A stretch of 64,000 bases of DNA, from NCBI GenBank assembly GCA_021733925.1, contig JAIPJY010000037.1:1-64000 (forward strand), written 5' to 3'. Below are positions 49,302 through 51,571 of this stretch, piece by piece. Position numbers and translations under genes: made by a program. The notes beneath the pieces are model-generated. The model had not been told where the DNA came from. It was given only the letters and a program-made list of their open reading frames with translations, and made no database searches. The stretch comes from Prosthecobacter sp. (lineage in GTDB: Bacteria > Verrucomicrobiota > Verrucomicrobiia > Verrucomicrobiales > Verrucomicrobiaceae). Numbering within the stretch: the first letter of the stretch is position 1; each line of letters begins with the position of its first letter.

Positions 49302-49622
49302 CTAGCGCAGATTGGATGGGATCGTTGGGCTGCTTGGTGCGGCGCGGCTTGGCGCAGGCGCTGGCGCGGGGGCCAGTGCCGGAGCGGCTGGGGCTGCCGG
49401 CTCAAGACTCATGGGTGCAGCGGACTGTTCGGCCCGGGCATTGTACTGATAGCGCATCTTCGGATTGCCACGTGATTTTCGTGGGGGCAGCCCCCAGCTC
49501 ACATCGTAGGCATCCTGCTGCGCCACCGTGGGATGGCGGGAGTCAACATGCTCAAAGGAACCGCAGGAGATGAGAAGGGTCGAGGCAAGCAGAGCGGCAA
49601 AGATGAAGCGCAGAGATGTCAT
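49302..49622 (-). CDS. Small lipoprotein, paralogue A
   Basis: A 106-residue lipoprotein with lipobox LISC and Cys20. The shared core is HPTVAQQDAYDVSWGLPPRKSRGNPKMRYQYNARAEQ, almost the same as in its neighbour. It ends with an Ala/Pro-rich tail absent from the neighbour. Family not recognised. Cell-envelope location is inferred. The pair probably arose by segmental duplication, because a decayed copy of the FolB gene end lies between them. Confidence 0.75.
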   Translation of the reverse strand: MTSLRFIFAALLASTLLISCGSFEHVDSRHPTVAQQDAYDVSWGLPPRKSRGNPKMRYQYNARAEQSAAPMSLEPAAPAAPALAPAPAPAPSRAAPSSPTIPSNLR

Positions 49623-49796: not shown

Positions 49797-50003
49797 TCAT
49801 GGCACCGCAGCCTGCTCAGCCCTGGAATTGTATTGATAGCGCATCTTCGGGTTGCCACGCACTTTGCGGGGGGCCAGCCCCCAGCTCATGTCATAGGCAT
49901 CCTGCTCGGACACCGTGGGCTGGCGGACATCGACAGGCTCCGTGCACGAGTTCAGAAAAGTGGTGGACAGCAAAGCGGCAACGAAAAAGCACAGTGTTTT
50001 CAT
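49797..50003 (-). CDS. Small lipoprotein, paralogue B
   Basis: A 68-residue lipoprotein (MKTLCFFVAALLSTTFLNSC with Cys20). It repeats the core RQPTVSEQDAYDMSWGLAPRKVRGNPKMRYQYNSRAEQ of its neighbour and lacks the Pro/Ala tail. The internal ATG at 50003 is used instead of the ORF start at 50078, which lies in the FolB gene end. Both copies have the same short upstream spacer (GGCAGAATT/GGAATTC type). Function unknown. Confidence 0.7.
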   Translation of the reverse strand: MKTLCFFVAALLSTTFLNSCTEPVDVRQPTVSEQDAYDMSWGLAPRKVRGNPKMRYQYNSRAEQAAVP

Positions 50004-50074
50004 GGTTTGGCAGAATGGAATTCCTAGCAGGGCACGATCAACCCAGGTCTTGGACTCCGCCCCAGCCATTCCGT

Positions 50075-51571
50075 TCACTCTCCCCGCACCAGTCGAACGG
50101 CCACATGGTCGGTTTCCGGCAGAATGCGTTTACGCAATTCTACGGTAACACCAATGGCTTGAAACTCCTCCAGCACGCAGGCCGCCATTTCGGACGCAAG
50201 GGTTTCGATCAACCGGCGCGGCCGCTCGGCAGCAATTTGCTGGAGCCGCACAGCGACAGCGGCGTAGTCGATCGTGGCAGCAATGTCATCATTCATCGCC
50301 TCGAAACGCCTGCGGATGCGCAGGGTGACGTCCGCCTCCAGCACCTGGCTCCCGGCACGTTCGGCCTCAGGAACGCCGATGTGCGTGGTGAGCTGCAGTG
50401 AAGAGAGGCGGATTTCGTCAGGGGGGAGCATGAGGACGGGTGGTTTTAGACGGGGAATGGGATCTGACAATGACGAAGTCCCCGCAGGCTTTTGCGCCGC
50501 AGGCACATCCTTCGTCATTCCCCCCAGCAGCCCCCGCCGCATGCATTCGTCGAGCAGGATTCGGGTGGGAATGTTCAAATCCATGCGCAGGGCCTCGGCC
50601 AGCGGCAGCCATTGAAAAGCCTGCGCCTCCTCGTTCAGCACCACCTGCGGCTGCTCCTCTGCACAGCGTGCGATGTAGTTCAGCAGAAGAAAGTGCGCGG
50701 AACGCTGAAACTCCACCGGCTCGATGCAGTCCTGCACCATCACAAATTCGATGTCCTGCAGCGTGAGCGCGGTTTCCTCCAAAATCTCACGCACGAGCGC
50801 TGCCTCACAGGTCTCGCCGCGTTTGATTTTCCCCCCGGGGATGCCCCAGCGGTGACTCCATTTGTGCGTGCGTATAAGGAGCATCTCGTCCTTGGAGTTT
50901 AAAATGAGAGCTCCGACGGTGGACACCGGGTACGCGCCATCCCCCCCGCTCAGCGGCCCCAGCAGAGCAGGCAGCCGTGACAGATCGGGCACCAGCATGT
51001 CCGGCGCGGCGGTCATGAGTGTCTCGGCGCTCTCGTAACCCGTGCAGGTGGCGATGGTCACCACCCCGGCGGCATGGCCCGCATCAATGTCATGCCGCAT
51101 GTCGCCGATGAAGGCCGTCTCTGCCGCCGCCATGTCCAGTTCCGCCAGCAGCCCATGAATCTCCGTGCGTTTGTCGAGGACCCCGCAGCGCATGACTTCA
51201 AACGCATCCCGCAGCCCCAGCGCCTCCGCCTGGGCCATCACATGCGGCAGCGGCGCACTGCTCAGCACCACCATCCGCCGCCCCGTGTCGGCAGCGAACT
51301 GGATGAACTCCCGCGCATGGGGCAAAATCTCGATGTCGGCATGCGCATGAGTGAAATGCTCCAAATAGAGCTCCTGCAGGCGCTCCAGCGGCAGGCCGGG
51401 CAGCACCTCCGCGAAAAACTCGGTGTACGGCAGGCGAAAACTGGCCTTGAAATCCTCCCGCGTCATTTCCGCAGCACCAGCGGCACGCAGCATGCCATTC
51501 ACGGCACAGATCACGCCCGGCTGGTCATCCACCAGCGTCCCGGACCAGTCGAACAAGAGATTCCGAATCAT
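50075..51571 (-). CDS. HAD phosphatase - Nudix - FolB trifunctional fusion
   Basis: A 498-residue protein with three catalytic domains. The HAD domain (about 1-205) has motif I D8-W-S-G-T12, motif II Ser104 (VVLSSA), motif III Lys134 (VLDKRTE) and motif IV GD156-157...D161; the usual second Asp of motif I is Ser10. The Nudix domain (about 215-345) has box G247-x5-E253-x7-R261-E262-x2-E265-E266, with the final Gly replaced by Ala268. A 20-residue linker encoded by a palindromic repeat precedes dihydroneopterin aldolase (about 386-498), with TIDYAAV, IETLASE and Lys481. Together these could convert dihydroneopterin triphosphate to hydroxymethyl-dihydropterin. Confidence 0.88.
   Translation of the reverse strand: MIRNLLFDWSGTLVDDQPGVICAVNGMLRAAGAAEMTREDFKASFRLPYTEFFAEVLPGLPLERLQELYLEHFTHAHADIEILPHAREFIQFAADTGRRMVVLSSAPLPHVMAQAEALGLRDAFEVMRCGVLDKRTEIHGLLAELDMAAAETAFIGDMRHDIDAGHAAGVVTIATCTGYESAETLMTAAPDMLVPDLSRLPALLGPLSGGDGAYPVSTVGALILNSKDEMLLIRTHKWSHRWGIPGGKIKRGETCEAALVREILEETALTLQDIEFVMVQDCIEPVEFQRSAHFLLLNYIARCAEEQPQVVLNEEAQAFQWLPLAEALRMDLNIPTRILLDECMRRGLLGGMTKDVPAAQKPAGTSSLSDPIPRLKPPVLMLPPDEIRLSSLQLTTHIGVPEAERAGSQVLEADVTLRIRRRFEAMNDDIAATIDYAAVAVRLQQIAAERPRRLIETLASEMAACVLEEFQAIGVTVELRKRILPETDHVAVRLVRGE
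50469..50520. repeat. TGACGAAG palindrome inside the fusion gene
   Basis: AATGACGAAG (50469-50478) is inverted as CTTCGTCATT (50511-50520), with two direct CCTGCGG copies between. The element is in frame and encodes the linker between the Nudix and FolB domains (about residues 350-371). Related ATGACGAA words occur near 59775-59810 and at 60730, the latter also within a coding region. Confidence 0.5.

Follow-up and report, generated by a model that had tools for sequence, protein, structure and literature searches.

Within folate synthesis, the phosphatase that acts on dihydroneopterin monophosphate is described differently in the parts of the literature available to us: it was drawn as non-specific in 2007 (PMC1971073), 'a specific phosphatase' is the wording of a 2023 paper, with no gene named there (PMC10339729), and a figure legend of a 2026 review reads 'P-ase = unidentified phosphatase' (PMC13259868). 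In the accessible portions of the open-licence PubMed Central literature, we found no HAD enzyme assigned to this monophosphate. According to excerpts of the 2007 paper, Nudix annotations are poorly amenable to projection by homology (PMC1971073). In HAD phosphatases, a general acid-base role has been ascribed to the second Asp of motif I (PMC12715507 and PMC8069645, both in part), and LHPP, which is active on small phospho-compounds, carries a Ser at this +2 position (PMC11277029, in part). Here, we describe a gene from a 64,000-nucleotide stretch of a Prosthecobacter sp. genome (hereafter, the window) that encodes a HAD phosphatase-like domain, a Nudix hydrolase domain and a dihydroneopterin aldolase (FolB) domain, and we compare it with its relatives in the same order and phylum.

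Results

Organization of the three-domain gene

The gene (Table 1) is an open reading frame of 498 amino acids that starts with ATG and has zero internal stops. Pfam recognizes HAD_2 (69.5 bits, residues 5–174), NUDIX (75.4 bits, residues 217–335) and FolB (70.1 bits against a curated cut-off of 31.8, residues 387–494), each above its curated cut-off, and this bears out the earlier note, which had placed the three domains in one open frame. The motif residues that it had named are likewise all as stated: D8-W-S10-G-T12, K134 and GDMRHD at 156–161 in the HAD domain; G247, E253, R261 and E262, then E265, E266, T and A268, in the Nudix box; and D435, Y436, E456TLA and K481 in FolB. Among the six fused copies of the window clade, codon differences in all three domains fall mostly at third positions, a bias that indicates a constrained coding sequence. 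This codon-position pattern, together with the conservation of the domains, rules out a chance frame or an annotation artefact. Just downstream of the gene, on the same strand, lies a small lipoprotein-like gene in two tandem copies (49302–49622 and 49797–50078, minus strand); the duplication extends to the sequence preceding the start codon, and the direct repeats measure 134 nt (81% identity, spacing 387) and 95 nt (76%, spacing 381).

Table 1. Coordinates of the three-domain gene and its parts within the window
Feature	Position	Strand	Basis
Three-domain gene, HAD-Nudix-FolB	50075..51571	-	ORF, Pfam; only FolB found in genome
HAD phosphatase-like domain, residues 1-206, C1-cap PGP-like fold	50954..51571	-	Pfam, alignments, model
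HAD motifs: DWSGT motif I (D8, S10), K134, GDMRHD 156-161	within 50954..51571	-	
Nudix hydrolase domain, residues 211-349, Nudix box 247-269	50525..50941	-	Pfam, alignments
Linker, residues 350-380	50432..50524	-	in-frame counterpart of intergenic gap in unfused relatives
Internal ATG, Met381	50429..50431	-	position of folB start in unfused relatives
Dihydroneopterin aldolase (FolB) domain, residues 381-498	50078..50431	-	Pfam, NCBIfam, alignment

A recent fusion

The HAD-Nudix-FolB chain was read in the window genome, in five near relatives and in one distant MAG. A search of genome contigs with peptide patterns of the window protein gave 37 named loci, six of which hold all three domains in one frame (L033–L036, L043 and the distant L060). 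A HAD-Nudix frame followed by a separate downstream folB frame is present in 27 of the 37 (including L068, in which the HAD is cut by the contig start); in two loci the HAD-Nudix gene is truncated by the contig end, and in another two only Nudix and FolB are present, one of these (L069) being cut at the contig end. Because folB is separate from HAD-Nudix in 27 loci, the three-domain chain is ruled out as the conserved unit. It is a recent local fusion. One locus, L039, is 94% identical to the window over HAD-Nudix, yet it is unfused.

In the window clade, the stop codon that followed the Nudix domain has been lost, and the 90–99-nt gap is now read through, giving a linker about 30 residues long. 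A comparison of the window, L033–L036 and L043 gave difference rates at codon positions 1, 2 and 3 of 0.145, 0.200 and 0.321 for the linker, and of 0.074, 0.036 and 0.249 for the HAD part of the same six copies; the linker of L043 has an in-frame 9-nt gap. In the structure model, the linker is predicted to be disordered (pLDDT <50 at 352–383). The pTM of the full-chain model is 0.48, and we therefore leave the relative placement of the domains uninterpreted. Full-length alignments in which HAD-Nudix rows were combined with FolB-only or HAD-FolB rows seemed, judging by their summaries, to misplace FolB and were excluded from folding. Met381, the old folB start, is retained in all six fused copies of the window clade and might allow FolB to be produced in free form as well.

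Two of the loci (L037 and L063) come from records titled Akkermansia muciniphila. Their HAD-Nudix genes are similar to those of Prosthecobacter and other lineages (L037 shows 80% identity to the window over HAD-Nudix), and therefore the names of these records are probably wrong.

The HAD domain and its Ser10

Of 118 distinct HAD hits, 116 have DWSGT as motif I; the exceptions are a 115-bit distant relative, which has DWNGT, and a weak additional HAD in L213. For motif IV, 116 of the same 118 hits carry GDMxHD and one carries GDTxHD, and in the remaining hit the motif was not found. The distant relative (L200, 4442–5116) combines DWNGT with GDTxHD; judging from this sequence, a wider sister family may have Asn where the subfamily has Ser. 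D8, K134, D157 and D161 are invariant in all 44 aligned HAD rows, and the second Asp of the HAD DxD is absent, with Ser in its place in all 116 orthologues read. The earlier note had counted Ser10 against a phosphatase. Its presence in 116 of 116 orthologues makes it a hallmark of the family instead of a defect, and the same count rules out a sequencing slip or a decayed site. An invariant Ser in an otherwise complete site argues for an altered, working HAD enzyme.

The model of the HAD domain (pLDDT 94.6) has a Rossmann-like core and a helical C1 cap. In a Foldseek search, its nearest folds were predicted phosphoglycolate phosphatases (query TM 0.80–0.89 in the best 14 rows), and the closest HAD-side NCBIfam models, among the matches listed, were also phosphoglycolate phosphatases; their cut-offs were missed (TIGR01449, 54.5 versus 180; PRK13222, 59.5 versus 327). 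Of the five alignments to solved relatives among the matches listed, four extend into motif I, and these four have DLDGT there.

The Nudix domain

Within the Nudix box (GX5EX7REUXEEXGU), the catalytic G, E, RE and EE are invariant in 56 of 56 rows. The earlier note had also held Ala268, in place of the last Gly of the box, against its reading, and this position turned out to be simply variable (Ala in 27 rows, Gly in 24 and other residues in five). Solved chains matched at 1e-12 comprised three NudI, one MutT-type and zero NudB, and NudB was not among the NCBIfam matches listed for the window protein (25 of 38). When the profile was searched against 141 genomes of the order at a threshold of 1e-30 or better, the Nudix domain was detected in 40: in 38 it is in frame with the HAD domain, and in two it lies beside folB only (G360, and G322 at a contig end). 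None was seen away from HAD or folB among these 141 genomes. No such Nudix is present in the unit of 55 of the 93 genomes that have the HAD.

FolB and the folate pathway of the genome

The source genome (7.3 Mb in 127 contigs) is 93% complete, and the nearest named relatives of the window locus are Prosthecobacter and other Verrucomicrobia MAGs. E404, Y436 and K481 of the FolB domain, which we take to be its catalytic Glu, Tyr and Lys, are invariant in 98 of 98 rows. The domain falls under the NCBIfam folB equivalog cut-off (TIGR00525, 63.4 versus 72.15 bits), as do the three relatives scored alongside it (54.5, 62 and 65.1 bits), and it passes the FolB-domain cut-off (TIGR00526, 64.6 versus 45.05 bits).

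What else of the pathway is encoded in this genome? The earlier note had named separate folB, folQ and phosphatase genes as findings that would speak against its reading. A second FolB was not found in the 93%-complete genome, and of the nine Nudix domains in it, including the present one, the other eight are without assignable function. The genome has one FolK and one FolE2 (GCHY-1 family), and FolE1 was not found at 1e-3. Its single PTPS homologue carries the motif CTKMHGH; we assume that PTPS with CxxxHGH are QueD-like rather than PTPS-III, and by this rule PTPS-III is ruled out as a replacement for FolB. The FolB domain of the chain is the only dihydroneopterin aldolase visible, as predicted from sequence, in this assembly.

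Linkage of HAD and FolB across the order and phylum

A profile built from the 44 aligned HAD rows found the subfamily, as a single copy, in 93 of the 141 genomes of the order. HAD and FolB share one frame in 32 of these (27 HAD-FolB and five HAD-Nudix-FolB), and in a further 45 a separate folB lies at most 250 nt downstream (27 after HAD-Nudix and 18 after HAD alone); FolB is hence fused or adjacent to HAD in 77 of the 93, with and without Nudix. One genome has folB no more than 2 kb away on the same strand. For the other 15, including one case at a contig end, FolB was not found in the fetched stretch around the HAD. HAD-FolB without Nudix occurs in families f2 (24 genomes) and f65 (three genomes), and Pfam confirmed it in all three loci tested (L101, L118 and L135). 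Twenty-one of the 24 f2 genomes belong to one genus, 2.2–3.5 Mb in genome size, which we take to be Akkermansia. What evolution has conserved as a unit is HAD, often HAD-Nudix, adjoining or fused with FolB.

In a phylum sample of 288 genomes, the HAD was matched in 45, with scores of at least 237.9 bits in 44 of them and of 115 bits in the other; FolB is present in all 45, compared with 260 of the 288 overall. Outside the order, folB is adjacent to the HAD in f8 and f11 and 529 nt away in f14. No folB lies near the HAD in any of six f4 genomes, and within the order no FolB was found in the fetched stretch for 11 of 12 HAD genomes of f63. The HAD neighbours checked in these two families (two in L115 by Pfam, and those of three f4 loci) are not pterin genes. 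In the three f4 loci (L191, L192 and L194), the HAD lies near a homocysteine S-methyltransferase-MTHFR gene (L192 by Pfam, the others by eye), the only folate-related HAD neighbour recognized there; a LOG/lysine-decarboxylase-like gene stands between the two, making this another folate-linked context. Thirty FolB loci from families outside the order, an uneven sample consisting of the best-scoring FolB matches, showed no HAD at 1e-5 within about 1.5 kb on each side.

No such HAD was found in 48 of the 141 genomes of the order, where absence was called after scoring up to 22 first-look candidates per genome (up to 11 in the phylum sample). FolB is present in at least 18 of these 48, so that either a different phosphatase can take its place or the HAD has some other function; this HAD is not the sole solution to the monophosphate step, even within the order. 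We read 18 loci for an alternative phosphatase and set three aside (L138, L140 and L146), the HAD being elsewhere in those genomes; in the remaining 15 loci of HAD-less genomes, no other phosphatase gene beside folB was recognized by eye. In the HAD-less Prosthecobacter-type loci (L120, L122, L123 and L125–L127), folB directly follows a frame containing MRQYDLIEYL..., a recurring neighbour that presumably resembles a PilT-type ATPase. Both HAD and FolB are absent from two genomes (G113 and G196) of the genus with fused genes; this joint absence carries little weight, since losing a fused gene removes both parts at once.

A tree was built from 102 distinct HAD sequences, leaving out identical sequences, partial hits, repeated fetches (L001–L032, L070–L074 and L161–L190) and 15 later loci. 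On this tree, the fusion state changed at least six times, linkage to FolB at least six times and Nudix presence at least ten times, with gain and loss not distinguished in the counts. The changes in fusion and in Nudix presence suggest that the association among HAD, Nudix and FolB has been rebuilt repeatedly. When Nudix presence was set against fusion in an independent-pairs test, too few pairs differed to be informative.

Discussion

How might such a chain act? Starting from the architecture, invariant motifs, linkage and single FolB observed directly here, we considered that the three domains might serve consecutive steps of the pterin branch. FolE2, encoded elsewhere in the genome, would yield dihydroneopterin triphosphate, which the Nudix domain would convert to the monophosphate and pyrophosphate. 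The HAD domain would then remove the last phosphate via an aspartyl-phosphate on D8, with Ser10 sitting where most HAD phosphatases would have the acid/base Asp, and the FolB domain would cleave dihydroneopterin, giving hydroxymethyl-dihydropterin, the presumed substrate of FolK. In the window clade, the joining of all three domains goes with the loss of the stop between HAD-Nudix and folB. The substrates in this scheme are assigned by inference, and our confidence differs from domain to domain: the FolB activity is very probable, action of the Nudix domain on the triphosphate is likely, and action of the HAD domain on the monophosphate is reasonably probable. Taken as a whole, the reading of the chain as a trifunctional pterin-branch enzyme is one that we favour with some reserve.

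The earlier note had proposed that the HAD domain is the missing phosphatase and that three steps run in series. That 77 of the 93 genomes with the HAD have it fused or adjacent to folB speaks for the former proposal, and the lack of the HAD in 48 of 141 genomes speaks against it; as for the latter, the order of the domains (HAD, Nudix, FolB) differs from that of the reactions (Nudix, HAD, FolB). Because the fusion is recent and local, because those 48 genomes are without the HAD and because the domain order differs, the proposal of a phosphatase is only partly supported.

Could the HAD domain instead be a repair or housekeeping enzyme resembling phosphoglycolate phosphatase that was caught beside folB, the linkage being inherited synteny and the fusions by-products of packing? 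Its nearest profile and fold matches, among those listed, are indeed phosphoglycolate phosphatases, it lies apart from folB in f63 and f4, and it is missing from 48 of the 141 genomes of the order. Nevertheless, we consider this unlikely: the score of 54.5 bits is far below the phosphoglycolate phosphatase cut-off of 180, all 116 orthologues have DWSGT and GDMxHD whereas solved relatives have DLDGT (in the four alignments, of five listed, that extend into motif I), the fusion state has changed at least six times, and the domain has been fused to FolB both with and without Nudix.

It is also quite improbable, in our estimation, that the HAD domain, the Nudix domain or both act on a related pterin step, with dihydromonapterin phosphate or the triphosphate itself as substrate, or with FolB as a FolX-like epimerase on phosphorylated pterins. 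Such a role would fit a FolB domain that scores below the folB equivalog cut-off, and it would fit the absence of Nudix from the unit in 55 of 93 HAD genomes, which implies that the HAD may not need the product of this Nudix; set against it are the presence of FolK, the finding that this is the sole FolB-family protein in the genome, and FolB catalytic residues that do not vary in 98 rows. That the HAD domain is a weak or regulatory remnant, with Ser10 for the acid/base Asp, and serves as a scaffold for FolB seems to us very improbable. Every orthologue read has lost the second motif-I Asp, the residue described as the general acid-base in the available parts of PMC12715507 and PMC8069645, but the nucleophile, the motif-III Lys and both motif-IV Asp residues do not vary in any of the 44 aligned rows, the codons of the six fused copies are under purifying selection, and LHPP is active despite a Ser there (PMC11277029, in part).

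We return to the reading of the HAD as a pterin phosphatase, and we are inclined, by a narrow measure of confidence, to the following proposal: the Verrucomicrobiota HADs with DWSGT and GDMxHD may constitute a dedicated dihydroneopterin-monophosphate phosphatase that uses Ser instead of the usual acid/base Asp and has repeatedly been fused to FolB. In the window clade it would be joined to both neighbouring steps, possibly holding back phosphorylated intermediates, with free FolB also supplied from the internal start. The HAD is thus a testable candidate for a step of the folate (vitamin B9) pathway that lacks an assigned enzyme. Since the family is compact and single-copy, has a clear motif signature and has had its FolB linkage rebuilt several times, purifying a single protein is enough for a test of the step. 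If the proposal is true, LHPP would be joined by another HAD phosphatase that functions with Ser at +2, and the bifunctional HAD-FolB of the apparent Akkermansia genomes, together with the trifunctional chain, would be available for studying channeling.

Comparison with known systems

Folate enzymes joined in one chain have been described before, namely FolK with FolB in Bifidobacterium longum and PabAa-PabAb-PabAc (PMC1971073); unlike the window chain, the fusions named in the available part of that paper are without a phosphatase for the monophosphate step. The FolB domain shares the Pfam FolB family and the invariant Glu, Tyr and Lys with a known FolB, that of M. tuberculosis (PDB 1nbu), and differs from it in being fused behind HAD-Nudix and in scoring under the folB equivalog cut-off. 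With FolQ/NudB, the Nudix domain has in common a complete catalytic box, and all 40 genomes that have it show it tied to HAD or FolB; its closest structures, matched at 1e-12, are in contrast of the NudI/MutT type. The HAD domain agrees with the C1-cap phosphoglycolate phosphatases in fold, nucleophile Asp, motif III Lys and GDxxxD, whereas it has DWSGT where they have DxDGT and scores far below the cut-offs of their families. Finally, LHPP, which the available part of its source places in the NagD clade, carries a Ser two residues after the nucleophile, like the HAD domain, and yet it is an active phosphatase (PMC11277029).
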